Assembly (NCBI GenBank): GCA_011390385.1
Contig: JAABSN010000012.1
Location: forward strand, 1-34,373
Direction of reading: 5' to 3'
DNA: 34,373 bases
Source: Thioalkalivibrio nitratireducens
GTDB taxonomy: Bacteria; Pseudomonadota; Gammaproteobacteria; Ectothiorhodospirales; Ectothiorhodospiraceae
This document shows positions 14,373-28,984 of the stretch, piece by piece (the stretch's first letter is position 1; each line of letters opens with the position of its first letter). The notes under the pieces were generated by a model. It saw only the letters and a program-made list of their open reading frames with translations, was not told where the DNA came from and did no database searches. A program made the translations under genes and the position numbers.

Positions 14373-14843
14373 TCAGATGAACAGACAGATATCCGATTCG
14401 CCGGCAAACTCGAAGAAGGCCGCGGCTCCCGCATATTCGACGCCATCGATGAATTCGGCCGTATCCATCTCGAACAGATCGACCGTCATCTGGCAGGCAA
14501 TCATCCGAACTTCAGCCTCAAGGCAAAGATCCCGCAGATCTTCCAGGCTGGCCACGCCCTTGGCCTTCATTTTCTGCTTCATCATCACCGTCATCATTTT
14601 CTGCATACCCGGCAGAGCCTGCAGCAGAACGGGAACGGGCATCGGCATTGGCATGCCCGGATTCCCCAATGAACTGACCTGGAGATCCAGCTTCTTCTTC
14701 AGCAGTTGCAGACCGTAGAAGGTGAAGAAGACTTCCACCTCATAGCCGAGCGCAGCCGCCGTTGATGCGAGAATGAATGGAGGGTAGCCCCAATCCAGGC
14801 TGCCCTTGGTCGCGATGATTGCAAGTTTCTTGGTGTCGCTCAT
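14373..14843 (-). CDS. dsrE2: DsrE2-like protein (DsrE/DsrF family)
   Basis: A 156-residue protein of the DsrE/F/H superfamily. The N-terminal strand and loop KLAIIATKGSLDWGYPPFIL are followed by ASTAAALGYEVEVFFTFYG. A methionine-rich central segment with MPMPMPVP and MMTVMMKQKMK comes next. The C-terminal part holds the conserved cysteines of CLEAEVRMIACQMTVDLF and ends GESDICLFI. This pattern fits DsrE2, which in sulfur oxidisers binds sulfane sulfur with the carriers TusA and rhodanese. Those partners are not adjacent here. The ATG at 14841-14843 is preceded by GGGGA; the frame is open further upstream but without a better site. It is convergent with dnaE2. Confidence 0.82.
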   Translation of the reverse strand: MSDTKKLAIIATKGSLDWGYPPFILASTAAALGYEVEVFFTFYGLQLLKKKLDLQVSSLGNPGMPMPMPVPVLLQALPGMQKMMTVMMKQKMKAKGVASLEDLRDLCLEAEVRMIACQMTVDLFEMDTAEFIDGVEYAGAAAFFEFAGESDICLFI

Positions 14844-15110
14844 AGTCACTATCCCCAACGAAGTCGATTTACGGCGTCGCCGCCTGTTGCAGCCGAACGC
14901 CACGGGAGCTTTCCATACCACCGGCCCGATCGTATTGCATCCGGCGCGGTTCGGATCAAACCTTTTTCCACAACTGCTTCAACGGTAACCACGCCCGATG
15001 GTTACCGCCGTTTCCCTACCATCCTCCGCACAGGGCACGGCACTTTCCGTGGCTTCCATCATTGGTGCCAGGCACTCGCACCGCGAGAAAACCGGCAACC
15101 GACCGCTTCT
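14844..15110. other. Upstream region of dsrE2
   Basis: 267 bases without a convincing gene between two minus-strand genes. It should hold the dsrE2 promoter. The one structural feature noticed is the inverted repeat at 14983-15007. Confidence 0.5.
14983..15007. promoter_or_regulatory. 9-bp inverted repeat upstream of dsrE2
   Basis: CGGTAACCA and TGGTTACCG are separated by seven bases, about 140 bases before the dsrE2 start. No T-run follows on either strand, so an operator or mRNA hairpin is as likely as a terminator. Its function is unknown. Confidence 0.4.
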
Positions 15111-15272
15111 TCAGACATCCTTGCCCGACGGACTCTGCAATTGCCGATCCTTCTGCCAGTCACGAACCAACGCACAACCAGCACAAACACCGAGCGCAGC
15201 GAGACTGGCCCATACTGAAACGGGGACCAGAATCATCGCCAGAACAAACATGATCCATGCCAGAATTGTCAT
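15111..15272 (-). CDS. Small membrane protein (53 aa)
   Basis: A 53-residue hydrophobic protein, MTILAWIMFVLAMILVPVSV followed by WASLAALGVCAGCALVRDW and a charged tail ending SPSGKDV. One long or two short membrane helices are possible, with the tail probably in the cytoplasm. The ATG at 15270-15272 has an excellent ribosome site (a GGGGGGAG run, about six bases away), the best evidence that it is real. The two cysteines in GVCAGC could be redox-active or metal-binding, but nothing shows this. No family is recognised. It lies upstream of dsrE2 on the same strand, 267 bases away. Confidence 0.65.
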   Translation of the reverse strand: MTILAWIMFVLAMILVPVSVWASLAALGVCAGCALVRDWQKDRQLQSPSGKDV

Positions 15273-15539: not shown

Positions 15540-17069
15540 CTATCCGCGCACACTCTGATCGGATTCGGCACCGGTGTTCCCACGGTCTTCACTCATTCCA
15601 TTGGACGCCGCACTCGCGGTGCGCGTCTCGTTTTCGCCAGCCGTCTGCCCGGATTTCAACCCAGCGTCCATGAACTGATTGTTGAGGCGCTGGATATAGG
15701 CTTCCACACGATCCCGCAGCGCGTGCAGCTGGCGTATCGAGCCGCGACCAAGGCCGGTCGGGGACTGGCGGAAAATGGAACGCCAGAACACGGTATTCTT
15801 CATGAAGGCAGCCCGCCAGTTACCCGAGGCCGTCTCATCCGGAAGGCTCTGCGCGACGCGCCGAGCCACCCAGTTCCGATTCAGGAAGTGAATGGCCAGC
15901 AGGATGAGCACCACTGCCACCGCCCCTGCCCCCGATCTGACCGGGCCCTCCTGAATCGCACTCAGCAACGGGCCAAAGCCGCCGGCCATCGCTTGTGCGC
16001 CGTAGACCACGATGGCAAGCACCACCGCCATCATCAGGAAATCCGCCTGCAACACGCGTCGACGCCAGCGTGCCAATGCACCCTTCAATGCCGGGAGCGC
16101 ATCCATTTCAATCGCCTCGGCGATAGCCTGCATCGCGCCCACGATACGGTACGACCGCGAGGAACTGATCTCGCTGATCTTCGCATGGATTTCCTCCCGA
16201 TCGCGGGCCGCCTTGTATTCGTAACGTGCCCGAACCTTTTCGTCTCCGATCTCGACCGCCGCACCCGTGTTGTACAGACAGTAGAAACGCCCGGTCGCGT
16301 TGCCCTGGCGCACCACCGCACGCTGCCACGCGGAAACGACCTCTTCGAGATTGTCCTCGCGCCACGTGGTATCGATCTGGTTCAGCACGAAGACGAGCTT
16401 CGTGAAATCATTGCGTGCGGCCACCCGGTTCACGAGATGTTCGAGCGTATCGCGCATCGCACCGGGTTCCGGATGGCGGGCATCGAAAAAGACCAGGACA
16501 AGGTCTGAGAGATCGATGATGTGGTCCGTCAACTGCAGGATCGTGGCACGCTGCTCATCTGCGTCGAACCCGGGTGAGTCGATCAGGATACGGCCTCGCA
16601 ACCGTTCGGACTTGATCGTCTTCATCGCCAGGAAGTGATCCACCGTGCGGCCACCGCCGTCGCTCAGGCGTTCGATCTCGCTGCTCACCCTGTAGAACGG
16701 AAAGCGCGGGTCGCCATCGAGCGCCAGGCCCGGCAATTCCTTGACGTTCTCGCTGGCGCCATAGCTGATCACCGTGAACCGGTCATCCACTGCCTGACTG
16801 CCACTACGCTGGACGGTCGCTCCGATATACTCGTTGATGAACGTCGATTTGCCAGCGGAGAAGGTCCCCAGAACCGCGATCATCGGCCACCAGGATATGG
16901 TGAATGCGTAGGATTCTTCCTCCGGGTCCAGAAACCCGGCGGCATAGCCAAGCCGGTCCAAGGCGCCGAAGGACTCCACGACCCCTTCCAGGGCCGGATT
17001 TTCCTCCGACAGACGATCGCTCAGCAGGGTCAGTTGCTGGTTCACTCGGTTGCCAGGACGGTTGAACAT
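15540..17069 (-). CDS. Dynamin-like GTPase with C-terminal membrane helices
   Basis: A 509-residue GTPase of the dynamin/GTPase-fold superfamily. The G1 P-loop is GTFSAGKST at about 68-76, with a candidate G2 threonine in DDRFTVISYG. G3 is DSPGFD (164-169) and G4 is NQID (230-233). Two hydrophobic helices lie at about 343-363 and 379-397, so it is anchored in the inner membrane with the GTPase domain inside the cell. The C-terminal 110 residues are polar and end in a low-complexity tail. Bacterial dynamin-like proteins remodel or fuse membranes; the role here is unknown. GGAG stands five bases before the ATG. It is the last gene of the ten-gene minus-strand block, 36 bases after the heptad-repeat protein gene. 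Confidence 0.85.
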   Translation of the reverse strand: MFNRPGNRVNQQLTLLSDRLSEENPALEGVVESFGALDRLGYAAGFLDPEEESYAFTISWWPMIAVLGTFSAGKSTFINEYIGATVQRSGSQAVDDRFTVISYGASENVKELPGLALDGDPRFPFYRVSSEIERLSDGGGRTVDHFLAMKTIKSERLRGRILIDSPGFDADEQRATILQLTDHIIDLSDLVLVFFDARHPEPGAMRDTLEHLVNRVAARNDFTKLVFVLNQIDTTWREDNLEEVVSAWQRAVVRQGNATGRFYCLYNTGAAVEIGDEKVRARYEYKAARDREEIHAKISEISSSRSYRIVGAMQAIAEAIEMDALPALKGALARWRRRVLQADFLMMAVVLAIVVYGAQAMAGGFGPLLSAIQEGPVRSGAGAVAVVLILLAIHFLNRNWVARRVAQSLPDETASGNWRAAFMKNTVFWRSIFRQSPTGLGRGSIRQLHALRDRVEAYIQRLNNQFMDAGLKSGQTAGENETRTASAASNGMSEDRGNTGAESDQSVRG

Positions 17070-17105
17070 GCTTACTCCATGGTTGCGGATTGAGGCGACA
17101 CCGGG

Positions 17106-17636
17106 TCAGCGTCCGCCTTGCTGCGGAAAATACGGCGCGGGAGACCCCGGGAAAGGACCCTGATTACCGTTGAAGGGATTGAAACTGTTCATCATGCCCA
17201 GCGGACCGGACACATTCCGGTTGAGGCTCCACATGTCGCGCTGCATGTTCAATGTCGATCCAGCCATGGTTGTCGTATCCGTGGCCATCGAACGGATGTT
17301 GATGTTCATGCTGCTGATGTCGCGCGTCATGGAACCGATATTCCGGTTCATCGACAGCATGTTGTCGTTGATCGACACCATGCGTTCGTCGATGTCCCCC
17401 ATCTTGCGGGCCATCACCGCCATCTCCCGATCGATGGTCCGGGTCATTGCCGACATTTCTATCGCCAGCCGGCTGACGTCGCGGGTGAGACTGGTAATCA
17501 GCCAGAAACCGTATACAGCAAGGACCACGAAGGCCACCAGTGACGAATAGACGATCAGCTGCAAACGCCGTGATCGAACATCGTATTCATCCGAGTCCAG
17601 ATGGCGCGCATCATTGTGTTCGTTGAAATTGCTCAT
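17106..17636 (-). CDS. Membrane-anchored heptad-repeat (coiled-coil) protein
   Basis: A 176-residue protein of unrecognised family. A polar, acidic N-terminus (1-26) is followed by one membrane helix (about 27-48). A long segment then shows seven-residue periodicity with Met and Ile at the core positions, for example LSMNRNI, GSMTRDI, SSMNINI and RSMATDT (about 85-125). This should form a parallel coiled coil projecting into the periplasm. The tail from 145 is Asn/Pro/Gly/Phe-rich (NSFNPFNGNQGPFPGS). The form suggests a spacer or scaffold. It sits between the DUF302 and GTPase genes, 48 and 36 bases from them, in the same direction. Confidence 0.78.
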   Translation of the reverse strand: MSNFNEHNDARHLDSDEYDVRSRRLQLIVYSSLVAFVVLAVYGFWLITSLTRDVSRLAIEMSAMTRTIDREMAVMARKMGDIDERMVSINDNMLSMNRNIGSMTRDISSMNINIRSMATDTTTMAGSTLNMQRDMWSLNRNVSGPLGMMNSFNPFNGNQGPFPGSPAPYFPQQGGR

Positions 17637-17684
17637 TATTCACGTCCAGCCAAGAAAAATTTTCGTACGCCCCTCAGGCAACCA

Positions 17685-18272
17685 TCAGATACTGATTCCG
17701 GCCGCTCGATCCACCATCTCGCGCAACGTGTCCTGAAGACCCAACGCACGTTCCTGCAGCGCCAGCGGCAACGGCCTGCCACCATGAATCACAAAATCGA
17801 GATTGGGGCTCATCAGCCACAGCCTACCCCGCTCGTCCTGATACAGAATCACGCGGCACGGTAGAAAAGCCGCCATGGCGGGATTGAGTGCCATCAAATC
17901 CGTCGCGAGGTCCGGATCACAGAACAGGTAGGCATTGAGCAGGGGAAAGCTGCGCCCCGCTCGGGCAAGGACCTCCCGCTGAACATGGAGCGTACCTAAC
18001 GAATGCACTCCAAGCTCCGCCGCCGCCTCCTCCAGATGTTTCTCGATCTCGGCAATGGATCGCTGGGCAACGACCTGGCGTTGGTAGACCATTGCCGCCA
18101 TCGGATCCCCGGTTTCCAGAATCGTCCGGGCCATATTGGCGTACACGCCGAGGGCCACGTCGTCCAGGCTGCGGGCCTTGTTGACATAGGGCTCAAATGC
18201 CAGGATGACCACCGCCATGACGATCAGCGAGGCAGCCCCCACCAGTGCGAGCAGATTGCGCAACAGCCTCAT
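17685..18272 (-). CDS. DUF302 domain membrane protein
   Basis: A 195-residue protein with an N-terminal hydrophobic helix (about 5-26) that is a signal anchor, and a DUF302 domain from about residue 80 to the end. The recognisable core is LLNAYLFCDPDLATDLMALN followed by NPAMAAFLPCRVILYQDE and RLWLMSPNLDFVIHGG. DUF302 proteins are small alpha/beta proteins of unknown biochemical role, some found beside sulfur- or heme-related genes. The middle is helical and charged (SIAEIEKHLEEAAAELG). A cysteine stands in each of the two conserved blocks. It is most likely periplasmic and membrane-tethered. Confidence 0.82.
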   Translation of the reverse strand: MRLLRNLLALVGAASLIVMAVVILAFEPYVNKARSLDDVALGVYANMARTILETGDPMAAMVYQRQVVAQRSIAEIEKHLEEAAAELGVHSLGTLHVQREVLARAGRSFPLLNAYLFCDPDLATDLMALNPAMAAFLPCRVILYQDERGRLWLMSPNLDFVIHGGRPLPLALQERALGLQDTLREMVDRAAGISI

Positions 18273-18381
18273 TTTGCGCCCCGGGAATCATGGAGGGCCT
18301 CAACCCGCAGGGACAGGCAGAGTTGTGGCCTGAAGCATGGAGGCACGGCATCTCGCTGGCATAGGACAACAGAGCGCTATT

Positions 18382-19374
18382 CTACCTGAATTGCTCGAGG
18401 TGTGAGCGCCCATCCGGATGGTAGCGATCATAGACGGAGGCGAGGCGCCGCAGCATGGCACTTCGCTCCTTGGCCGGCAGCGTCTGGATCGCCGCGTCGT
18501 AGGCGGCAAGTGCAGCCGGGAAATTCCTGGCCATGAAATGGTAGTTGCCCATCTCGCCATAAAGGTCTGCCAGCCCCGGCGTTGTTGAAGGCAGTTCCCG
18601 CAAGTCCTGAGCCATTGCCTCCGCCGCTGCGTTCGGACCCCGGCTTCGGGCCAGCGAGCGAGCGCGCGCGAGCACTTCCGCCTGGCGCTCGGTCGATCCG
18701 GTATCAGCGACAGGATCAGGAGACGTTTCCGCCACCGGCGCAGCCGCCGATTCTCCGTCCTCCCCCTCGCTCTCTGCGACTGCCGCCGGTTCCTTCCGGC
18801 TATCCCGAACCTCCACCTCGGTGCCGGCATCTGCGCGAACCGGGGTACCGTTCGTCGCAACGGGGGTGTCCGACCCCGACCGCGCCAGATCCTCCGATGC
18901 CGGAGCCGGTTCGGGCCCGGCGTCTTTCTCGGTCACCGCACTCTTGGCATCCGCAGCTTTCCGAGAGAGTGTCGTCGAGTCGCTTGCAGCAACCGGCACT
19001 ACCTCCTCGGTCGGTCGATCAATGTCTTCCTCCGATCCCGATCCGGCGGCGGTCTTCCGCTGTGCGGTCGGGTTGCGGGGAGGCGCGTCATGGGCCGAGG
19101 TACCGGTGTCCATCGCAGCGGAGTCAGATAGCGATGCCAGATCCGGGTCGGCTGCTGTGACCACTTCATCCACCGAGTCACCTGAAGCAGATGGAGTCGA
19201 CTCCGACTGCAGCGCCGGTTCGGCGACTTCAGCCGCACGTGCCGACTCAGCGGGTGCATCCTCGGCCGATGGGGGCCCGCCGGCGAGCCAGTCACGATTC
19301 GCCCATGCGATCACCCAGAGGACAATGACGAGGAAAATCCAGTATTTACGCAAAAAGGTGCGCGCTGCAGCCAT
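18382..19374 (-). CDS. Membrane-anchored protein with disordered linker and TPR-like end
   Basis: A 330-residue protein of three parts. A single membrane helix lies at about 11-26 (YWIFLVIVLWVIAWA). Residues about 30-230 are low-complexity, rich in Ala, Ser, Thr, Glu and Asp, and probably disordered. The C-terminal 90 residues are helical and TPR-like, with MGNYHFMARNFPAALAAYDA and RSAMLRRLASVYDRY. With this topology the TPR end would reach into the periplasm on a long tether, like envelope proteins that bridge the inner membrane to a distant target. Exact function is not recognised. It lies directly downstream of the ParA gene (48-base gap). Confidence 0.78.
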   Translation of the reverse strand: MAAARTFLRKYWIFLVIVLWVIAWANRDWLAGGPPSAEDAPAESARAAEVAEPALQSESTPSASGDSVDEVVTAADPDLASLSDSAAMDTGTSAHDAPPRNPTAQRKTAAGSGSEEDIDRPTEEVVPVAASDSTTLSRKAADAKSAVTEKDAGPEPAPASEDLARSGSDTPVATNGTPVRADAGTEVEVRDSRKEPAAVAESEGEDGESAAAPVAETSPDPVADTGSTERQAEVLARARSLARSRGPNAAAEAMAQDLRELPSTTPGLADLYGEMGNYHFMARNFPAALAAYDAAIQTLPAKERSAMLRRLASVYDRYHPDGRSHLEQFR

Positions 19375-19422
19375 GGTTCACCTTGGAGTTCTTGATGATT
19401 GCGGTAGATGGGGACCGTGGAC

Positions 19423-20058
19423 TTATCGGCGATTCTTCCGAAAAATGGTCTTGGCCAGCTCATCGAGTTCGAGAGCGGCCTTACCGCGACGCTCCAGTTC
19501 CTGAACCGACAGCCCCTCGCTGAACGAGCGTCGGAAGGCCATGCGTTGACGGAGGCGCGGGCGCAGTGCCCGGATACCTTCGATCATTCCGAGAGCACCA
19601 AAGGCTTCGTCAGACTCACGCACCGCCTGGTGTGTGTCCGCTCGGTTGATGAAGCCCATGATTTCGGGTTTGGAGCGATCGCCACGCAACTCCACGATCT
19701 TCTTCACGAAACGTTGCGTCGACCATACGTCCGCCTGACTGGGGGGGACGGGGATGACGACCTGATCGGCAGCGAGGATCGCCGCATACATCGTGCCGAG
19801 GTCGGAGGGCCCGACGTCGACAATGATGTCCTGATAGGCGTCTCCGGCCTTCATCGCCTCATCGAGGCTTTGGGAGAGTTCCAGAACGGGGGTATACCCT
19901 TCCTCCTCGCGAACGCGCACGACATCCGTCAGTGTCGCCTGCGGGTCGAGATCGACCACGAGAACCTTGCGCTTGTTTGCGAGTGCCCACAGGGCCAGAT
20001 TGAATGCGACCGTGCTTTTTCCGGTACCGCCTTTCAAATTGCCGATGACTGTCAGCAT
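19423..20058 (-). CDS. Orphan ParA/MinD-family ATPase
   Basis: A 211-residue cytoplasmic ATPase of the ParA/MinD superfamily. The deviant Walker A is KGGTGKST (9-16, with the signature Lys9). Walker A' is DLDPQAT, and the Walker B strand reads IIVDVGPSD. The end has basic segments (RPRLRQRM, FRKNRR) suited to non-specific DNA binding. There is no ParB gene, no visible parS site and no replication gene, so chromosome or plasmid partition is unlikely. Such orphan ParAs position cargoes such as carboxysomes (McdA), chemoreceptor arrays and flagella. It lies between a sulfur-globule-like protein gene and a tethered envelope protein gene. The ATG at 20056-20058 has no strong ribosome site; upstream in-frame alternatives exist. 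Confidence 0.9.
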   Translation of the reverse strand: MLTVIGNLKGGTGKSTVAFNLALWALANKRKVLVVDLDPQATLTDVVRVREEEGYTPVLELSQSLDEAMKAGDAYQDIIVDVGPSDLGTMYAAILAADQVVIPVPPSQADVWSTQRFVKKIVELRGDRSKPEIMGFINRADTHQAVRESDEAFGALGMIEGIRALRPRLRQRMAFRRSFSEGLSVQELERRGKAALELDELAKTIFRKNRR

Positions 20059-20130
20059 CCGGAGCCTCAAGGCAAGGGGTTGAGGAAGTCCTGCCCGGCG
20101 CAAGCCGGACAGGCTTTCACTTGCGTTGGC

Positions 20131-20472
20131 TTACCAACGCGGGCCGTAGCCGTAGCCAGGGCCGTATCCGCCGTAGCCGGGCTGGCCGTAGCCATAGCCG
20201 GAACCATCACCGCGACCATAGCCGTGGCCCCGGCTTGCGCCACGCCCTGACATGCCGAAATCCATGTCGTTGAACATGTCGCCCATGCCGAACATGTCAC
20301 CCATGCCGCGTCCATAGCCTGGACCGTAGCCACCATAGCCCGGCGCATAACCGGGGCCATAGCCCGGGCCACCCCAGCCTGGACCGCCCCACTGCGCCGA
20401 CGCGAGCATCGGTGCTGCGGACAGCGCAGCGACAGAAGCGGCCATAACGAATGCCTTGACGAACTTGCTCAT
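20131..20472 (-). CDS. Sulfur-globule-like secreted Gly/Tyr-rich protein
   Basis: A 113-residue secreted protein. The signal peptide MSKFVKAFVMAASVAALSAA ends at ASA, with likely cleavage after residue 26. The mature 87 residues are built of GYGPGY, PGYGGYGP and GWGGPG repeats with a short central DMFGMGDMFNDMDFGM stretch. This composition is that of the sulfur globule proteins that coat periplasmic sulfur in Chromatiaceae and relatives. Gly/Tyr-rich proteins also occur in other coats, so the call rests on composition and context. An excellent ribosome site (GGAGG, five bases before the ATG at 20470-20472) suggests strong expression. Strongly repetitive coding DNA makes its length variable in evolution. 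Confidence 0.8.
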   Translation of the reverse strand: MSKFVKAFVMAASVAALSAAPMLASAQWGGPGWGGPGYGPGYAPGYGGYGPGYGRGMGDMFGMGDMFNDMDFGMSGRGASRGHGYGRGDGSGYGYGQPGYGGYGPGYGYGPRW

Positions 20473-20553
20473 GAAAACCTCCAATGGAGTGTTGTGCCCT
20501 CTTTAGAATTACGCACTGGCCATGAGGGCTACCGACCTGTGCGCATTGTGTAT

Positions 20554-21087
20554 TCAGTACGGCATCCCGAACATGGGTATGCCTGACGACGAGCCATAAA
20601 GCGGGGAAAGCAGCCCCGGCGTCGTCAGACCGGTTCCGGGAAACAGCATACCACTACCCAGATAGCTGCTATAGGGAGAAAGTCCCGGGTAGGTCAAACC
20701 GGGAACGCCATAGATCCCGGACGACCCGGGAACCGAACCATAGCCATAAGGATCGGGGGCGGCCCGACCCAGCGCATCAGGCGCGGCCCTGATCTCTCCT
20801 GTCGGAGGATACCGCGAAGCGTCGCCGTACCCTGGCTGGACGAAGTCTCCAGGATTGGAAGAACGCCTTCGCCGCTCGTCCACCGGATCATAGTCCCGAG
20901 GCGCGAAACGGCCGTCGGAATACGGGCGCAACTCCAGAGCCGGTGCCCGCTGCTCGGGCGTAGCCCAGGGGTTGCCGCGGTCACGGGCCTCAAGACCACC
21001 CATCGGGGCGTTGCCCAATACCACGCCGAGCAATAGCACCCAGCCCGATATCCGCCCGGGAAGTCGTTCGCTGGCCAACCGGTTCAT
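20554..21087 (-). CDS. Secreted Pro/Gly/Tyr/Ser-rich protein
   Basis: A 177-residue protein with an N-terminal hydrophobic segment (GWVLLLGVVLGNAP, about 15-28) that looks like a signal peptide. The middle, to residue about 110, is charged and Arg/Asp/Pro-rich (RPYSDGRFAPRDYDPVDERR). The C-terminal half is a low-complexity run of Gly, Pro, Tyr, Ser and Leu, with GLTYPGLSPYSSYLGSG and GIPMFGMPY. No family is recognised. Its composition and position between two other secreted aromatic/Gly-rich proteins suggest a structural coat or matrix component. Gaps to its neighbours are 69 and 81 bases. The start has only a weak ribosome site. Confidence 0.72.
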   Translation of the reverse strand: MNRLASERLPGRISGWVLLLGVVLGNAPMGGLEARDRGNPWATPEQRAPALELRPYSDGRFAPRDYDPVDERRRRSSNPGDFVQPGYGDASRYPPTGEIRAAPDALGRAAPDPYGYGSVPGSSGIYGVPGLTYPGLSPYSSYLGSGMLFPGTGLTTPGLLSPLYGSSSGIPMFGMPY

Positions 21088-21156
21088 GGTCCCGGGCCAA
21101 CCTCCAGCACGTGGGTTCCCTGGCGATGGCTGCCCACGGCGGGAGGGTATCCCTGC

Positions 21157-21918
21157 TTACTCGGCCGAACCTTGTTCAGCGTTCGCCGGGGCGTCGTAGC
21201 GGGTTTCCATGGCCTGCCGCCGTTCTTCCATCATTTTCTCCATCGCTTCCCGCTGCTTTTCCATTTCGGCCATGTAGGCTTCGCGGCCGGCTTCCATCGC
21301 CTTTTCGCGGGCCTCACGCATTTCTTCGATCTCCTGCATCTGCTTCTCGCGCTCGGCCATCATCTCCTTCATGCGCTCTTCACGCTCGGCCATGGCCTGC
21401 TTGATTTCCTCGGGCATCTCGGCCATATAGGCGGCACGGGCCGCCTCCATCGCCTTCATGCGCGCCTCGCGCATCGCCTCCATCTCTTCCATGCGCTCCG
21501 CCCGCTGCGCTTCCATGGCCTTCATGCGCTCTTCACGCTCAGCCTCCATCGCCTTCATGCGCTCTTCACGCTCGGCCATGGCCGCCTTCATTTCCTCGGA
21601 CATTTCCGGCATCTGTCCGCGCTGCCCCTCGCGGACCCACGGCGGCGGTTCAAAGGCAGGCGCCTGCCGGTCCATGAACTCCGGGCGCTGCGGCATGCCA
21701 TAGCCCTGCGGCATCCCGTAGCCGTGGCGCGGCGCGTATCCGCCGTCAGGCCGACCATACCCGTAGGCCATCGGCCCGTGGCCGAAGCCAGGGGCGCCAT
21801 AGGTCTGCCCCGATGCGCCCTCGTTTGCCTGCACGGCGCCAGTCAGCGCCAGCGTGGCGGCCACAGCGAGGGCCGTCAGCGAAAACTTGCCAAAACGATT
21901 GCTCGAATCTTGCTTCAT
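21157..21918 (-). CDS. Secreted protein: Gly/Tyr-rich head plus Met/Glu/Arg helical repeat
   Basis: A 253-residue secreted protein. The signal peptide probably ends at VQA (about residue 31). Residues 32-80 are Gly/Tyr/Met/Pro-rich (GFGHGPMAYGYGRPDGG), like the nearby sulfur-globule-like protein. Residues about 105-240 form an almost uninterrupted charged helix of repeated units such as AEREERMKAME, with methionine about every four to seven residues. This would be a coiled coil or single alpha-helix. AGGAGA lies seven bases before the ATG, a strong site. The repeats are recent at DNA level: a 21-base unit recurs exactly at 21367, 21520 and 21553. No family is recognised; a methionine-rich scaffold or metal-binding role is conjecture. 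Confidence 0.78.
   Translation of the reverse strand: MKQDSSNRFGKFSLTALAVAATLALTGAVQANEGASGQTYGAPGFGHGPMAYGYGRPDGGYAPRHGYGMPQGYGMPQRPEFMDRQAPAFEPPPWVREGQRGQMPEMSEEMKAAMAEREERMKAMEAEREERMKAMEAQRAERMEEMEAMREARMKAMEAARAAYMAEMPEEIKQAMAEREERMKEMMAEREKQMQEIEEMREAREKAMEAGREAYMAEMEKQREAMEKMMEERRQAMETRYDAPANAEQGSAE
21367..21583 (-). repeat. Exact DNA repeats within the helical-repeat gene
   Basis: A 21-base unit beginning CTTCATGCGCTCTTCACG on the plus strand occurs at 21367-21387, 21520-21540 and 21553-21573. The first and third copies are identical for ten further bases. They encode repeats of the charged helix, and identity at codon level points to recent duplication or gene conversion. Confidence 0.75.
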
Positions 21919-21968
21919 GAGTATGTCTCCTGATTTTAAAGTTTTTTCGGTTATCTTACTTCTTGCGC

Positions 21969-24900
21969 CTACTTCAAACGAATGCCGCGGCGCCGACGGG
22001 TATTGCTGGTTGTTGCCCCGGCTGCCCCGGACTCTTCCCCCAGTCCGACTTTGGCATCGACCGCACGGCTTCCTTTTCCAGACTGCGCCGCAGGTTCAGG
22101 CGCAACTGTTGACCCCTCTCCTGCGGATTCCTTCTTTTGCTCCCGGGTGCGAGAGGGTGTTTCACCGCCCGCTTTCGCGGGCCGAGTTGCCTGCGTGGAA
22201 CGCCGAGGCACATTGCTGTCATCGTTTCCAGCGGCGTCCGATTGCGTGGCACGGGCTTTCGACCGCGCCTGAGGCTTTTCGCCGTCACCTGACGGTACCG
22301 AAGAGCCAACGGGAGCATTCTTGGACGCACCGGAAACCTCGCCAGATCCAGACCCCGGCTCCGACGGTCCACCCGTCGTACCACCACCGGCTCCCGGGCT
22401 CGGGGAGCCCGGTCCACCGGGACCACCTGTGCCAGGACCCGGTGGTCCATCGGAGCCACCTCCGATCAAGCGCAGAATGAGCCGCGCCAATGCGCGCAGC
22501 AACTGCACAACGCCCTCGACAATACTGGCGATCAAGGATTTCAGGTAAAGCCACGCAAGACCGAGCCCCCGGGAAAGAGGACCATCGGCCGGCGCGGTCA
22601 TCTTCCGTGGCTTTCCGGGCACGTTCTCGTCTGCAGCGGGCTCGCCGTACTCGGGACCCATCGCTGCAAGGGTGCCGTCACCCCCGGTATCCCCTTCCGC
22701 ATGATCGAGACCCTCAAAGGTCTTGCGAGCACTGATGCAACCCAGCGGGATGACCAACAAGGTAAGCAGCGTGGCGACGATCGTGCCAAACATCAGGGAT
22801 ACCGCCATTCCCTGGAAGATCGGGTCGAACAGGATCACGCTGGAGCCGGCGAGCAGCGCAAAAGCCGTGATCAGGATTGGCCGGGTACGTGCCTGGCAAG
22901 CGTTGATCATCGCCTGCATCAGGTCCTCGCCCTCGGCCACCTGGTGTCTCGCAAAATCCACAAGAAGTATCGAGTTGCGGACGATAATGCCCGCCAGCGC
23001 GATGAAGCCGATCATCGACGTCGCGGTAAACTCAGCTCCGAGTATCCAATGCCCGGGGATAATCCCGATCAGGGTCAACGGAATGGGCGCCATCACGATC
23101 GCGGGCAGGAGAAAGTTACCGAACTCCCAGACCACGAGCATGTAAATGAGCACCAGCGCAATGGCGAATGCGATGCCCATGTCCCGGAAGGTTTCGTAGG
23201 TAACGGTCCACTCTCCCGCCCACTCGAACGCCACGGAACCGTCATTAGGTGGCGGAGCCACCCAGTACGACTGGAGTTCCCCGCCTCCGGGCAGCGAATA
23301 ATCCTCGATTTGCTGTTCCACTTCCAGCATGCCGTAAATGGGCGCCGCCAATCTCCCGACCGTTTCGGCCGTCACATATTCAACCGGTCTCAGATTCTTG
23401 TGGAAAATGGGCTCATCCTGCGGCATGCGCACGAATTCACCCAATTCCGAAAGCGGTACGGAGCCGCCCGCCATCGTCGGCACCGGGAGCAGGAGCAGGT
23501 TCTGGACATTCGACCTTGCCACAAGCGGCAGGCGCAGTCGGATCATATGCGGCTCGACCAGCGAACGCGCCTTTACATCTCCCAGCAGTTGCCCTCCAAC
23601 CGCTGACTCCAACGTCCGATTCACTGCGTCGACGGTTACGCCACGCCGAAGAGCCTTGTCGCGCTCGACATTGAAATGCCACACGTCGTATGGCGCTTGC
23701 AGAAAGCTGTCTACGTCGTCCAGGTGCGGAGCGTTGTCGAACATGCGCTCCATGTCCAAAGCCACCTGTCGCCTGACTTCGGCGTCGGGTCCATAGATCT
23801 CGGCCACCACGGACTGGAGGACTGGAGGGCCGGGCGGCATCTCGACCACCTGAATCCGGGCGCCGGCCGCCTCGGCCAGCGGGGCCACCAGTGCGCGTGC
23901 CTCGACAGCGATATCGTGGCTGGTCCGTTTGCGGTCACCCTTGTCCAGCAACTGCACCTGGATATCAGCCTGCCAGGGCTCCTGGCGAAGATAATAGTGC
24001 CGAACCAGGCCATTGAAGTTGAAGGGCGAGGCGGTGCCGACATAGGCCTGGACGGCGGTCACCTCGGGCAATTCACGAAGAACCATCGCAAGTTCATGGG
24101 TGAGGGTCGCGGTTTTCGGCAGCGCGGTCCCCTCGGGGAAATTGATCACCACGTTGAATTCGGGCTTGTTGTCGAGCGGCAACATCTTCACCGACACATC
24201 CTTGGTGAAAAAGAGCATCACGGTCAGGAAGAAGACGACCAGGATTCCGATCAGGAAACCCCAGCCGTAGGTCCGATTGTTCACCAGGCCGGGGATGGCC
24301 TTGGCGAACAAGCGCCCCATCATCTCGTTCTGCTTGTGCTCCTTCTCTTCGGCACGCTGCAGATATTCCATCGTCGGCCGCAGGCGCCAGGCCAGCCAGG
24401 GAGTGAACAGGAATGCTGCAACCAGCGAGAACAGCATCGCAACCGAACCCAAGGCCGGAATCGGTTGCATGTACGGCCCCATCATTCCGGTCACGAAGCC
24501 CATTGGGAGCAGAGCCGCGATCACTGTGAATGTGGCAAGGATAGTTGGGTTGCCCACCTCGGCAACGGCATCCACCGTGGTTTCGGTATCGACACCCCGC
24601 TTCATCAGCCATCGCCGATAGATGTTTTCCACCACAACGATCGCGTCGTCGACCAGAATGCCAATGGCGAAGATCAGCGCGAACAGGCTGACCCGGTCGA
24701 TCGTATAGCCCATCAACCAGGCGCTGAATATGGTGAACAGGAGCACGACGGGGATCACGATCAGCACGACCAGCGCCGCGCGCAGGCCGAGGAAGATGAA
24801 CACCAGAACGGTCACGGCCGCGGTAGCGATGAAGAGCTTGAACATCAACTCATTCACCTTGGCGTTGGCCGTCTCCCCGTAGTTGCGGGTCACCGAGACT

Positions 24901-25946
24901 TCGACGTTGTCGGGGATGACCTGGCCTTTCAGCAGTTCCAGCCGTTCCAGTATGCCGTTGGCCACCGCAACACCATTCGAACCCTCCTTCTTGGCAATCG
25001 CGATGGTGACCGCTGCGGCACCCTCCGGAGCAGCGTCCGCCTGTCCGCCAGCGACACCGGTGTAGTAGCGGACGAAGCGGTCAACCGGGCCGGGACCATA
25101 GATCACTTCCGCAACATCACGGACATAGATGGGGCGACCTTCGTCGACCGTGATCAACAGACGTCCGATATCCTGGGCATCGCGCAGGAACGAACCCGTA
25201 TAGATGGGCGTATCGTTCGGCCCGACCTCTATGGTTCCGGCGGTAAGCTCGGAGTTGGCTCCCTGCACCGCCTGCGCGATCTGCTGCATGGTCACGTTGT
25301 GCCCGGCGAGCCGCTCGGGCATCACTTCGATCCGGACCATCTCCTCACGGCCACTGACCACGAAGCTCTGGCTGGTATTGGGCACCTCGTTCAGGTATTG
25401 CAGCGAATCCAGCGCGATCTGCCGCAGCATCGCGTCATCGAGATCGTGCGACCAGAGCGTGAGGGTCACCGTGGGAACGTCATCCACACCCTTGGGTTTC
25501 ACCATCGGCTCGGATACGCCAGGCGCCATCAGATCCCGGTTCGATGTGAGCTTGTCATGCACCTTGACGATGGATGACTCCATCTCTTCACCCACGTCGA
25601 ACTGCACCGTGACCATTGCCTGACCACGATGAGAGACGCTGTACACGTTGTCGACGCCGGATATCTCACTCATCAGGCGCTCGAGCGGTCGCGCAACGAG
25701 GCTGGCCACCTGCTCCGAGGGCACTCCCGGGTACTGGACAAAGATGTCCACCATCGGGACAGAGATCTGCGGATCCTCCTGGCGGGGTGTGATCACCAGA
25801 CCCAGAATACCGATCCCCAGCGTAGCCAACAGAAGCAGGGGTGACAAAGGCGAGTGGATAAAGGTCTGCGCCATCCTCCCGGCCAACCCGAGATCCTTGG
25901 CAGGGACGTCGTCACCTACGGCATGCTGATTGTTATGCTCGGACAT
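21969..25946 (-). CDS. RND efflux transporter permease with long C-terminal extension
   Basis: A 1325-residue inner-membrane proton-driven RND permease. The N-terminal helix is followed by a periplasmic porter domain starting TPRQEDPQISVPMVDIFVQYPG. The TM4 proton-relay motif is GILVDDAIVVVENIYRRW with the paired aspartates. The second half repeats the fold, and the last helices end near residue 1070. A normal RND protein stops about there; this one continues for 255 residues. The extension is an acidic linker, an amphipathic helix (about 1127-1161, SLIASIVEGVVQLLRALARL), then a 164-residue Gly/Pro/Ser-rich tail ending in RRRRGIRLK. It follows its adaptor gene by 95 bases. No outer-membrane channel gene is present in the window. 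Substrate unknown. Confidence 0.92.
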   Translation of the reverse strand: MSEHNNQHAVGDDVPAKDLGLAGRMAQTFIHSPLSPLLLLATLGIGILGLVITPRQEDPQISVPMVDIFVQYPGVPSEQVASLVARPLERLMSEISGVDNVYSVSHRGQAMVTVQFDVGEEMESSIVKVHDKLTSNRDLMAPGVSEPMVKPKGVDDVPTVTLTLWSHDLDDAMLRQIALDSLQYLNEVPNTSQSFVVSGREEMVRIEVMPERLAGHNVTMQQIAQAVQGANSELTAGTIEVGPNDTPIYTGSFLRDAQDIGRLLITVDEGRPIYVRDVAEVIYGPGPVDRFVRYYTGVAGGQADAAPEGAAAVTIAIAKKEGSNGVAVANGILERLELLKGQVIPDNVEVSVTRNYGETANAKVNELMFKLFIATAAVTVLVFIFLGLRAALVVLIVIPVVLLFTIFSAWLMGYTIDRVSLFALIFAIGILVDDAIVVVENIYRRWLMKRGVDTETTVDAVAEVGNPTILATFTVIAALLPMGFVTGMMGPYMQPIPALGSVAMLFSLVAAFLFTPWLAWRLRPTMEYLQRAEEKEHKQNEMMGRLFAKAIPGLVNNRTYGWGFLIGILVVFFLTVMLFFTKDVSVKMLPLDNKPEFNVVINFPEGTALPKTATLTHELAMVLRELPEVTAVQAYVGTASPFNFNGLVRHYYLRQEPWQADIQVQLLDKGDRKRTSHDIAVEARALVAPLAEAAGARIQVVEMPPGPPVLQSVVAEIYGPDAEVRRQVALDMERMFDNAPHLDDVDSFLQAPYDVWHFNVERDKALRRGVTVDAVNRTLESAVGGQLLGDVKARSLVEPHMIRLRLPLVARSNVQNLLLLPVPTMAGGSVPLSELGEFVRMPQDEPIFHKNLRPVEYVTAETVGRLAAPIYGMLEVEQQIEDYSLPGGGELQSYWVAPPPNDGSVAFEWAGEWTVTYETFRDMGIAFAIALVLIYMLVVWEFGNFLLPAIVMAPIPLTLIGIIPGHWILGAEFTATSMIGFIALAGIIVRNSILLVDFARHQVAEGEDLMQAMINACQARTRPILITAFALLAGSSVILFDPIFQGMAVSLMFGTIVATLLTLLVIPLGCISARKTFEGLDHAEGDTGGDGTLAAMGPEYGEPAADENVPGKPRKMTAPADGPLSRGLGLAWLYLKSLIASIVEGVVQLLRALARLILRLIGGGSDGPPGPGTGGPGGPGSPSPGAGGGTTGGPSEPGSGSGEVSGASKNAPVGSSVPSGDGEKPQARSKARATQSDAAGNDDSNVPRRSTQATRPAKAGGETPSRTREQKKESAGEGSTVAPEPAAQSGKGSRAVDAKVGLGEESGAAGATTSNTRRRRGIRLK

Positions 25947-26041
25947 GGCTGTTTTTCAGTCTCTTTTCTTGGTATCCCTGCGCGCACGACCGAGGCTTCT
26001 CGCCGCGGTGTGACCCTGGGCTGAGAACATCCCCTGCGGAC

Positions 26042-27223
26042 CTACCGGAAGCGCGGCCCGCTGGGACGTGGGGCATAGTTGCTGTCCACGCGATCGCCGG
26101 AACGTACGTTGGCATCCGGATCGTCCAGAATGCGCTCCCCCGCCTCCAGCCCGGAAAGCACGGTGACCATGTCGCCCTGCACCGCACCCAGCCGCACCAT
26201 CCGCACCCGGGTCGTGCCGTCCCCATCGACAACAGCCACCCGCGGCAGGGCGCCCCCCGGTACGATCGCGGATAGAGGAATGCGAACGACCCCCCGCGCC
26301 GTATCGGCACCCGGGAGATGCACATCCGCATACATTCCGGGCCCGCCGGGAACGCCACGCGGCAGATCGAACTTGACCGTCACGGTGTGGCGCTGCGGAT
26401 CGGCGATCGGAAAGATCTGGGCGACACGGGCATCGACTTCGGTCTTGCCGACGTCGAGGGTCACCCGGACCATGTCCCCCACCGAAAGACGGCCGACCAG
26501 CCGTGCCGGGATGTCTGCCTCCACACGCAGGAATTCGACGTGTCCGAAGGTGACCAGAGGATGCCCAGGCTGAACCGTATCGCCTTCCTCCACGTGCTTG
26601 CGCATGATCAGCCCCGAGAAAGGCGCTACCGAGCGCGTGTCACGAATCGCCGAATCGAGTTCTTCCAGGCGCGAACGCGCCTGGTGCCAGCGCGAGGTCG
26701 CCTGGTCGATCCCGACCTGACGCGAGAAGAGATCGGCATGGCGTTCGACCGATGGATCGCCGAGGCCGGCCATGGAGCCCGCCGGTCGGGTAATCAACTG
26801 GTCGAACATCGACGGGATCCCCATGCCCGGCATCTGGCCGATATCCCGGCTTCGGGGCGCCGCGATTTCGCGGCCGTATTGCATCTGGGCTTCGCGTAAC
26901 GCCGCCTCCGCAGAACGCAGCTCCGCGATCGCGGCCTGGCGCTGCGCGGCCAAACGTTCATCGCTGATCGCGACCAGCACCTCATCCCGATCGAAATAGT
27001 CCCCCTCTGCGCCGGCGACCAGTGTGACCCGACCACCGATCTGCGCGGTCAGCGTCACTTCGCGGAACGGCACCACCGTACCGCTGATGGTTTGATCACC
27101 CGCGGTCGCGGCCTCCACCGTGATGACCCTGCCAAACTGGGCCAACGCGGTACCGGCAAACATCAGGAGTGCTGCAGACACGGCAGCCAGGAGTGCTCTG
27201 GTTGGAGTCATGGTCATCTTCAT
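26042..27223 (-). CDS. RND periplasmic adaptor (membrane fusion protein)
   Basis: A 393-residue periplasmic adaptor linking the RND permease to an outer-membrane channel. The signal peptide spans about residues 1-28 and ends TALA. A lipoyl-like half follows (SGTVVPFREVTLTAQIGGRV, then GDYFDRDEVLVAI), and a helical hairpin with RLAAQRQAAIAELRSAEAAL. The second lipoyl half is APFSGLIMRKHVEEGDTVQPG, and beta-barrel and membrane-proximal domains complete it. The hairpin carries an inserted stretch rich in Met, Gly and Pro (IGQMPGMGIPSMFDQ). It is the first gene of the ten-gene block. Several in-frame ATGs (MKMTMTP) make the exact start uncertain by up to four residues. Confidence 0.9.
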   Translation of the reverse strand: MKMTMTPTRALLAAVSAALLMFAGTALAQFGRVITVEAATAGDQTISGTVVPFREVTLTAQIGGRVTLVAGAEGDYFDRDEVLVAISDERLAAQRQAAIAELRSAEAALREAQMQYGREIAAPRSRDIGQMPGMGIPSMFDQLITRPAGSMAGLGDPSVERHADLFSRQVGIDQATSRWHQARSRLEELDSAIRDTRSVAPFSGLIMRKHVEEGDTVQPGHPLVTFGHVEFLRVEADIPARLVGRLSVGDMVRVTLDVGKTEVDARVAQIFPIADPQRHTVTVKFDLPRGVPGGPGMYADVHLPGADTARGVVRIPLSAIVPGGALPRVAVVDGDGTTRVRMVRLGAVQGDMVTVLSGLEAGERILDDPDANVRSGDRVDSNYAPRPSGPRFR

Positions 27224-27595: not shown

Positions 27596-28984
27596 GTGGC
27601 AATGCACTTGGAAGCGCTTGTCGAGCTGTTCAATAGCCTCATCCAGCAGAACCGTGACGCGGTTTTGGTGATCGATGATCGGGACCGCATTGTCACACAC
27701 AATGCAGCCCTTGTTGAACTGCTCGGGCAACCCCGAGGCACCCGTTTCGACTCGGCCCTGCGCCTCGGCCCCATCAACCTGCAACGCTTGCTGGTGCGCG
27801 CCGCCATTGCCGCCGGTCAACAGGACGTTGTCGGGCGTGCGCGCTGGGAGGCACTCGATTTCGGGGCGGTACTGGAAATTCACAAACCGCCCAAGGCGGT
27901 GCGTATCACGAGCACTCCACTTCCTCTGATGGAACAGGAGCGTCCGCTTCGTCTCGTGACCATAGCGGCCGACCCCGCCGCAGGCATCACCGCAATCGAT
28001 CCCCAGGGGCCAACGCCGAAATCGCCATTGCAGTCCGCGGACCCACACTGCCGGGAACAGCTTGATCAGGCACGCAGAGCAGTTGCGACCGGGCAGCGCC
28101 TGCTCCTGCTCGGAGAGACGGGTACCGGCAAGACCTTGATTGCGCGGACGCTCCACCTGTACGGACAGCGCGGCAGCGGTCCACTGATTGACGTCCACTG
28201 TGCTGCGCTCCCGGAATTCACGCTGGAATCGGAACTCTTCGGACATGCCCGCGGTGCGTTCCCCGGTGCCAGTGCAGAGCGCGAAGGACGGATCGAGGCG
28301 GCTGCCGGAGGCACGCTGGTGCTGGATGAAATCGGCGCCATGTCTCCGCATCTGCAGGCTGTCCTGCAGCGCGTGCTGGGCGAAGGTCGCTTCGAGCGGG
28401 TCGGTGAAAACCGGACCCGGAAACTGGGGGCAAACATCATTTCCACCGCCGGTACGGACCTTCACCAGCGCTTGGCAGACGGGCGGTTTCGTTCCGACCT
28501 CTTCTACCGGCTTGCAGCCGTCAGCGTGCGCCTGCCGCCCCTGCGCGAAAGACCGGCTGATCTCGACTCAATCGTGGAAACCTGGGCCGCGAAACACCGC
28601 ATTGCGATCACCGCTGCCGGGCAACAACGCCTTCGGCAGCATCCTTGGCCCGGAAACTTCCGGGAATTGCACCACCTGCTCGAAGCCCTGCGCCTGCGGT
28701 CCCCAGCCGGCAGCACGCTGACTGAAAGCGAGATCAGCCAAAGCCTGTCGGGTCCGGAACATGAACCGATCGCGAACATCCCTCCAGGGTCAGGCCGAAA
28801 TCCGGTACAGGCACCCCCACCTTTCTCTCCGGAAGAGGAACGTGAGCGCGAAACGCTGCGTGCTGCGCTTGCAGCGCACGACGGCAATCGTTCACTGGCG
28901 GCCCAAAGCCTGGGGATCGATCGTACGACCCTTTGGCGCAAGCTGCACCGCTTACGCCTGATTCCAGAGCGGAGCACAACATGA
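27596..28984 (+). CDS. Sigma-54-type enhancer-binding regulator with altered GAFTGA loop
   Basis: A 462-residue transcription regulator. The N-terminal PAS-like sensor (about 5-125) starts LVELFNSLIQQNRDAVLVID. The AAA+ domain has Walker A GETGTGKT (173-180), Walker B TLVLDEIG (240-247) and the end GRFRSDLFYRL followed by PPLRERPADLDSI. The C-terminal Fis-type helix-turn-helix reads HDGNRSLAAQSLGIDRTTLW. The loop that contacts sigma-54 is GAFPGA (220-225) instead of GAFTGA, so the critical Thr is Pro. The start is GTG at 27596 or ATG at 27602; GGA at 27589 suits the latter slightly better. It is divergent from the pump operon and convergent with thrC. Confidence 0.9.
   Translation: MAMHLEALVELFNSLIQQNRDAVLVIDDRDRIVTHNAALVELLGQPRGTRFDSALRLGPINLQRLLVRAAIAAGQQDVVGRARWEALDFGAVLEIHKPPKAVRITSTPLPLMEQERPLRLVTIAADPAAGITAIDPQGPTPKSPLQSADPHCREQLDQARRAVATGQRLLLLGETGTGKTLIARTLHLYGQRGSGPLIDVHCAALPEFTLESELFGHARGAFPGASAEREGRIEAAAGGTLVLDEIGAMSPHLQAVLQRVLGEGRFERVGENRTRKLGANIISTAGTDLHQRLADGRFRSDLFYRLAAVSVRLPPLRERPADLDSIVETWAAKHRIAITAAGQQRLRQHPWPGNFRELHHLLEALRLRSPAGSTLTESEISQSLSGPEHEPIANIPPGSGRNPVQAPPPFSPEEERERETLRAALAAHDGNRSLAAQSLGIDRTTLWRKLHRLRLIPERSTT

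Follow-up and report, generated by a model that had tools for sequence, protein, structure and literature searches.

To our knowledge, how sulfur globules are built and placed, beyond their coat proteins, is largely unknown. Here we describe a 34,373-nt stretch of DNA from Thioalkalivibrio nitratireducens (assembly GCA_011390385.1, contig JAABSN010000012.1; hereafter the window), in which ten consecutive genes encode a resistance-nodulation-division (RND) pump and its adaptor, secreted coat-like proteins, a ParA ATPase, membrane-anchored proteins and a dynamin-like GTPase. This run is probably a sulfur-globule module in which the pump tail acts as the partner of ParA, and ParA places the pump and the globules. 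As far as our searches show, the module is apparently undescribed; each part is of a known kind, and what is new is how they are combined and the peptide that we propose as the partner of ParA.

McdAB carboxysome positioning and ParABS share with this locus a small ParA ATPase and, if our proposal holds, a partner that is attached to the cargo and has a basic peptide at one terminus; such partners are thought to bind the ATPase through a positively charged N-terminus (PMC12204374, in the part available to us). Here, by contrast, the candidate peptide forms the C-terminal end of an RND pump, and a membrane pump together with a periplasmic granule would be the cargo. The locus parallels SgpA-D of Allochromatium vinosum in encoding a coat-like protein that resembles sulfur globule proteins (SGPs) and a coiled-coil protein with some likeness to SgpD. 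In that species SgpD coats globules and sgpD adjoins an exporter and a regulator, and sgpA-D have scattered locus tags; the available part of the source reports no ParA or dynamin links of the Sgp proteins (PMC10386293). TriC, MexK and AcrB have a similar pump core and adaptor, whereas the window pump adds a long tail, an amphipathic helix and an RRGI[RQK]LK end. The GTPase has weak sequence similarity to EHD ATPases, mitofusins and bacterial dynamin-like proteins (EHD4, E = 1.4e-5), and membrane remodelling by it is presumed. The open-licence literature on sulfur globules with dynamin, RND or ParA yielded no description of the module, an absence that is itself weak evidence. The parts of two papers available to us concern SUP05 genomes without dynamin (PMC6509183) and RND genes other than these (PMC11267869). 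Neither 'sulfur' nor 'globule' occurs in PMC13052382.

The ten open reading frames (ORFs), all on the minus strand, run from the adaptor (26042-27223) to the GTPase (15540-17069). If ParA is taken to start at the ATG at 20058 and the Gly/Tyr-rich protein at the ATG at 20472, the nine gaps measure 95, 50, 69, 81, 72, 48, 109, 48 and 36 bases, in exact agreement with the preliminary description of ten genes in one direction with gaps of 36-109 bases. Pfam matches in the block comprise ACR_tran, RND adaptor domains, AAA_31/CbiA in ParA, DUF302 and Dynamin_N. The periplasmic adaptor (MFP type; 393 aa, with a signal peptide) matches HlyD_D23 at 60 bits, HlyD_3 at 52 bits and TIGR01730 at 156 bits. 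The pump (21969-25946, 1325 aa) has the AcrB-type fold and the profile of an RND (HAE-type) efflux permease (ACR_tran, 493 bits), and its tail of ~245 aa extends past the AcrB-like core.

In most pumps of this type, the tail consists of a hydrophobic or amphipathic helix and a charged low-complexity stretch, and it ends in RRGI[RQK]LK. The window pump ends in RRGIRLK (21972-21992), which we propose to be a ParA-recruiting tag because of its co-occurrence with ParA. When we shuffled the 80 C-terminal residues of 101 pumps with the motif, the pattern appeared in 60 of 50,500 sequences (0.12%). We collected 142 loci with a pump (at least six row pairs have an identical pump sequence, fetched twice), and 124 were usable, with a closed tail and either parA found or at least 4.5 kb of downstream sequence. 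Motif and parA (within 6 kb downstream) occurred together in 77 of the 124 and neither was present in 39; four loci had the motif only and four had parA only.

All eight discordant rows can be resolved. Two parA-only rows, L017 and L173, carry motif variants (RRGIRLT and RKGIRLK). In the other two (L023 near 7356 and L174 near 6702, in pump orientation), the frame ends early and RRGIKLK lies downstream in another frame; this displacement may reflect a sequencing error, a split gene or a frameshift. The genomes of the four motif-only rows (G218, G310, G364 and G149) encode a cluster-type ParA elsewhere, at 205-311 bits, compared to distant ParAs only, at no more than 75 bits, in genomes of motif-less clusters (G006, G008, G010 and G214).

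A further 20 Magnetococcales-type loci were chosen from pump matches, separately from the 124. The motif was present in 19 of them (three times as RRGIRM) and a local parA in 13, all with the motif. The six motif-positive loci lacking a local parA have a ParA elsewhere in the genome (274-282 bits), and in the genome of the sole motif-less locus (L229, G468) we found no ParA match at E <= 1e-10. The most telling case is loss of motif and ParA without loss of the module: loci of Thiofilum (L055), Thiohalobacter (L060) and Thiogranum (L065) keep the adaptor, pump, coiled-coil protein and GTPase, both motif and ParA are gone, and only distant ParAs occur in their genomes.

Motif and ParA changed together repeatedly on the pump tree. 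We built a FastTree tree of 125 pump cores with the tail removed, scoring the four resolved parA-only rows as motif-bearing, and the motif state changed nine times on it. We drew 200 random sets, each of nine independent pairs; in these sets local parA differed in the same direction as the motif in 5-7 pairs (mean 6.5) and in the opposite direction in none (median p 0.016, range 0.016-0.0625). Scored by the strict pattern, 13 pairs were available, of which on average 6.5 went in the same direction, none in the opposite direction and 6.5 showed no difference. The contrasting comparison of GTPase with local parA gave on average three pairs in the same and two in the opposite direction (p 0.625-1). 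Relabelling by genome-wide ParA raised the agreement to nine of nine pairs (p 0.004); we keep this out of the main evidence because just the four motif-only rows were relabelled.

The ParA ATPase (19423-20058, 211 aa; AAA_31, 62 bits) is of the small ParF-like type and has a deviant KGGxGKST Walker A motif with the signature lysine (KGGTGKST), in which K, GG and GKST are invariant in a 13-row alignment. It scored 131.8 bits against NF041546 (ParA family partition ATPase), under the cut-off of 180. Its nearest solved relatives are ParF (4dzz) and ParA (5u1g), and we therefore propose the pump tail as a C-terminal counterpart of the basic terminus through which ParA partners bind. Within the run, we saw no gene for a distinct McdB or ParB. 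The ATPase had been taken for an orphan ParA; because the pump-tail motif tracks it, it probably is not one. The same tracking lends indirect support to the positioning role suggested for it.

Judged by sequence, the 113-aa Gly/Tyr-rich protein (20131-20472), which has a signal-peptide-like N-terminus, resembles the SGP family without passing Pfam's cut-off. It scored 15.7 bits against PF17228, under the curated cut-off of 26.7. A profile built from six SGPs of distant clusters gave it 35.9 bits, compared to at most 7.7 for 1000 shuffled versions of its mature part. Ten chosen Gly/aromatic-rich proteins from other clusters all matched PF17228 at E <= 0.1, seven of them above the cut-off. Nine of the ten occupy the SGP position before parA (six of the nine above the cut-off), and the tenth, in L013, is encoded directly after the pump. 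The secreted Met/Glu-rich coiled-coil protein (21157-21918, 253 aa) gave a local alignment score of 100 with the SgpD-like protein of genome G040, compared to 60 +/- 9 (maximum 88) in 200 shuffles, which is suggestive of some likeness to that protein beyond composition.

We next consider how pump and SGP are distributed among genomes. A profile of 14 cluster pumps scored pumps of this type at ~1600-2170 bits and the sister pump at ~1150-1270 bits; our line for the type, 1590 bits, was chosen post hoc from the score gap, in which one fragment falls (1422 bits). Among 321 genomes drawn by class, 49 have a PF17228 match at E <= 0.001. This pump type is present in 44 of the 49, compared to 20 of the 272 without SGP (Fisher 8e-33, uncorrected for descent). 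By distance, with 144 SGP matches counted, weak ones included, 17 are found no more than 8 kb from a pump, including 13 that follow it on the same strand at 0.2-2.5 kb; none is that close to any of the 26 sister pumps listed for contrast. PF17228 had no match in 14 control genomes. Either dsrA or soxB scored above its cut-off in 61 of the 64 pump genomes and in 80 of the 257 others (dsrA alone, 51/64 vs 46/257; soxB alone, 57/64 vs 71/257). The sulfur-globule link of the preliminary description, which had been guessed from composition, is thus supported by PF17228 matches in other cluster proteins, by the shuffle-controlled match of the window protein and by genome-wide co-occurrence.

A second draw, by order, was centred on a Thiodiazotropha genome and comprised 119 genomes, of which 114 matched the pump profile at E <= 1e-150, sister pumps included; here two matches (1507-1546 bits) and a fragment (1303 bits) fall between the types, so that the line is not sharp everywhere. 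For the class of the Magnetococcales genome (L073, G012), which we take to be Magnetococcia, 43 of 48 genomes matched at E <= 1e-200, and 36 of the 43 have a match above 1590 bits. Three of the four Magnetococcales-type genomes with a PF17228 match (G487, G488 and G489) have it ~4-5 kb downstream of the pump, and in L234, from a genome without such a match (G486), SGP-like secreted proteins immediately precede parA. An open frame of at least 1190 aa is present in 54 of the 64 pump genomes of the class draw. Short-tailed pump paralogues (L111-L129 except L122) mostly occur alongside a long-tailed one in the genome, often with an adaptor and without ParA, coiled coil or GTPase.

The ten genes form a conserved, real module. 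We scanned named genomes with the GTPase as query and used the best 80 of 549 relatives as loci; the sample therefore represents the closest GTPases. Besides Thioalkalivibrio and Wenzhouxiangella, the loci carry the names Thiothrix, Cocleimonas, Thiofilum, Sedimenticola, Thiodiazotropha and lucinid symbionts, or just Gammaproteobacteria. Among the 41 loci with at least 8 kb of DNA upstream of the GTPase, adaptor and pump lie near it in 35 (pump on the same strand in 29, divergent in 6), ParA is present in 32 and the coiled-coil protein in 29. The six pump-less loci (L011, L018, L027, L059, L073 and L078) contain just the GTPase, in some cases accompanied by a TPR-like or DsrE2 gene. In the other 39, with shorter flanks, the pump was seen in 9, ParA in 11 and the coiled coil in 27. 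The module order also recurs in Magnetococcales-type genomes, and because order and content recur in other genomes the block is more than chance. The preliminary description had named scattered, unlinked homologues as the outcome that would speak against it; the genes instead remain linked in distant sulfur oxidisers.

These observations suggest the following working model. The SGP-like and coiled-coil proteins would be exported and coat periplasmic sulfur, while the AcrB/TriC-like pump and adaptor at the globule site may move a hydrophobic substrate, perhaps sulfur chains or lipid. The cytoplasmic pump tail, held at the membrane by its amphipathic helix, would present RRGI[RQK]LK to ParA in the manner of the basic N-termini of McdB and ParB, and nucleoid-bound ParA would spread or anchor the pumps and thereby the globules. 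The three membrane-anchored proteins (coiled-coil, TPR-like and DUF302) could bridge pump and coat on the periplasmic side, and the EHD-like GTPase may shape the inner membrane round the growing globule. In its fullest form, in which the transporter itself is the ParA partner and the run is a dedicated organelle machine of Gammaproteobacteria and Magnetococcia that assembles, feeds, shapes and places globules, we hold the model tentatively, as slightly short of an even call. It offers a conserved candidate machine for globules with named parts and a seven-residue peptide as a target. If it is true, a membrane transporter and a periplasmic granule join the cargoes of ParA, one 'orphan' ParA gains a partner, and the motif-ATPase co-loss test could be applied to others.

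Several points weigh against this model. Known ParA-partner peptides are N-terminal (PMC12204374, in the part available to us), and that of the pump is C-terminal. The counts that tie the pump to SGP and sulfur genes are not corrected for descent; 20 of the 64 pump genomes lack a PF17228 match, 5 of the 49 SGP genomes lack the pump, and a PF17228 match is missing in 44 of 48 Magnetococcales-type genomes. The pump-type counts also include short-tailed, motif-less members, which by frame length are the only ones in 10 of the 64. Thioalkalivibrio belongs to the Ectothiorhodospiraceae. Sgp proteins are reported absent from that family in the part of PMC10892978 available to us, and a similarly partial view of PMC10386293 lists Thioalkalivibrio among formers of enveloped globules. 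In G040, a genome presumed to be A. vinosum (unconfirmed), the SgpD-like gene adjoins a different, distant RND pump, and a dynamin-like gene was not seen in the stretch examined around a module copy elsewhere in that genome (L150), which has the motif, ParA, a DUF4412 protein and a coiled coil. With two RND pairings in G040, coat-like proteins adjoin two different RND types in one genome.

The exporter beside sgpD of A. vinosum had been a candidate for this pump itself, and we rejected it on the same presumed genome: the SgpD-like coiled-coil gene there is followed by an adaptor and then by an RND pump ~24% identical to that of the window (L158:979-6170).

The foremost alternative, which we consider unlikely, is a pump for export or detoxification of sulfur compounds or lipids at the envelope of sulfur oxidisers, with SGP and ParA doing separate jobs and the globules unpositioned. 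The tail motif tracks ParA both within and between genomes, and SGP matches adjoin this pump and none of the 26 sister pumps compared, neither of which this account would lead one to expect. Less probable still is that the motif anchors ParA at the membrane so that the nucleoid or some other cargo is moved or held, which would make the pump the anchor and not the cargo. The motif-ParA co-occurrence also fits this, and a pump embedded in the membrane moves less freely than a carboxysome; the position of the ParA gene after SGP-like genes, Magnetococcales-type genomes included, points to the globule instead.

Placement of the pump by ParA, as proposed in our model, depends on the side of the membrane on which the tail lies. 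The pump core matches AcrB-type structures, and the C-terminus of AcrB-type pumps is cytoplasmic; the tail would therefore begin on the ParA side. In the window pump the amphipathic helix covers residues 1127-1162 (22461-22568); the structural model, with a pLDDT of 65 too poor for topology, predicts residues 1123-1161 as a single helix. Over 99 pumps, the hydrophobic moment of the tail helix had a median z of 1.9 and exceeded 1.5 in 54, compared to -0.1 for TM12 of the same proteins, which argues for a helix lying along the membrane. Net tail charge, measured in 18 motif-bearing rows, was positive in 16, zero in L016 and -2 in L064. Weighing against our model, the tail helix reaches a mean Kyte-Doolittle value of 2.7 in some species and could cross the membrane, and the motif would therefore be periplasmic. 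We nevertheless give little credence to a spanning helix whose RRGI peptide binds the coat, with the ParA link reduced to shared loss of an optional sub-module, despite the strong hydrophobicity in several species: the helix is amphipathic in about half of the rows, the positive tail charge favours the cytoplasm, and coiled-coil, pump and GTPase genes persist where motif and ParA are gone (L055, L060 and L065).

The GTPase (509 aa, two hydrophobic helices) belongs to the dynamin superfamily by its Dynamin_N match (59.8 bits) and by a model resembling EHD4, mitofusins and bacterial dynamins. Relatives at E <= 0.001 numbered 5038 among 7996 scored candidates, and because it is so widespread the GTPase is no marker of the module. 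It lies beside 68 of 81 ParA-bearing pumps and 9 of 43 other pumps, part of these loci having been fetched with the GTPase query. It is the loosest member of the module, being found without an adjoining pump and ParA and showing no covariation with ParA on the tree. Viral contigs scanned with it yielded no relative.

The remaining members of the run include a secreted Gly/Pro/Tyr-rich protein (20554-21087, 177 aa) without a Pfam match, which has tblastn counterparts in L001, L002, L010, L014, L015 and L017. Three proteins have one N-terminal hydrophobic helix each: a 330-aa protein with a C-terminal TPR-like part (18382-19374; TPR_2 E = 0.016, below the cut-off), a 195-aa DUF302 protein (17685-18272; PF03625, 53 bits, with 49 homologues at E <= 0.001 in a protein search) and a 176-aa coiled-coil protein (17106-17636), whose 13-row alignment has invariant residues within the membrane helix. 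Proteins occupying the place of the 330-aa protein in L064 and L053 match TPR above the cut-off. The sequences agree with the initial description of three secreted proteins and three membrane proteins with a single helix. A secreted DUF4412-type protein, which is not in the window, lies between pump and ParA in L039, L150 and L232.

The ten genes stand, and two further same-strand genes that had been missed may extend the run. A 53-aa membrane ORF (15111-15272) has a counterpart in L007. A DsrE2-family gene (14373-14843; PF13686, 180 bits, E = 4.7e-53, on the longer ORF 14373-14921) is a possible further member in Thioalkalivibrio. In Thioalkalivibrio-named loci dsrE2 adjoins the GTPase, even without pump and ParA: L011 and L018 (strains ALJ21 and ALJ3) keep the GTPase, TPR-like and dsrE2 genes, plus secreted proteins in L011, and have a sister pump only.

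An outer-membrane channel family was not found among the window ORFs scanned, and the channel may lie elsewhere. Rfam (gathering cut-offs) and tRNA scans of the window gave no match. A pattern scan of the window found 12 terminator-like sites, compared to 8.8 +/- 3.1 in shuffles and weak evidence either way, with none on the minus strand inside any gap; the single promoter-like site, compared to 3.2 expected and likewise weak evidence, immediately precedes the DUF302 gene. Thioalkalivibrio predominates among the nearest named proteins. In one Magnetococcales-type genome, the module is closely followed by a second and larger ParA-like ORF (L234:12386-13273). In the window, a divergent PAS/sigma-54-activator gene (27596-28984, plus strand) bounds the block and is a possible regulator.

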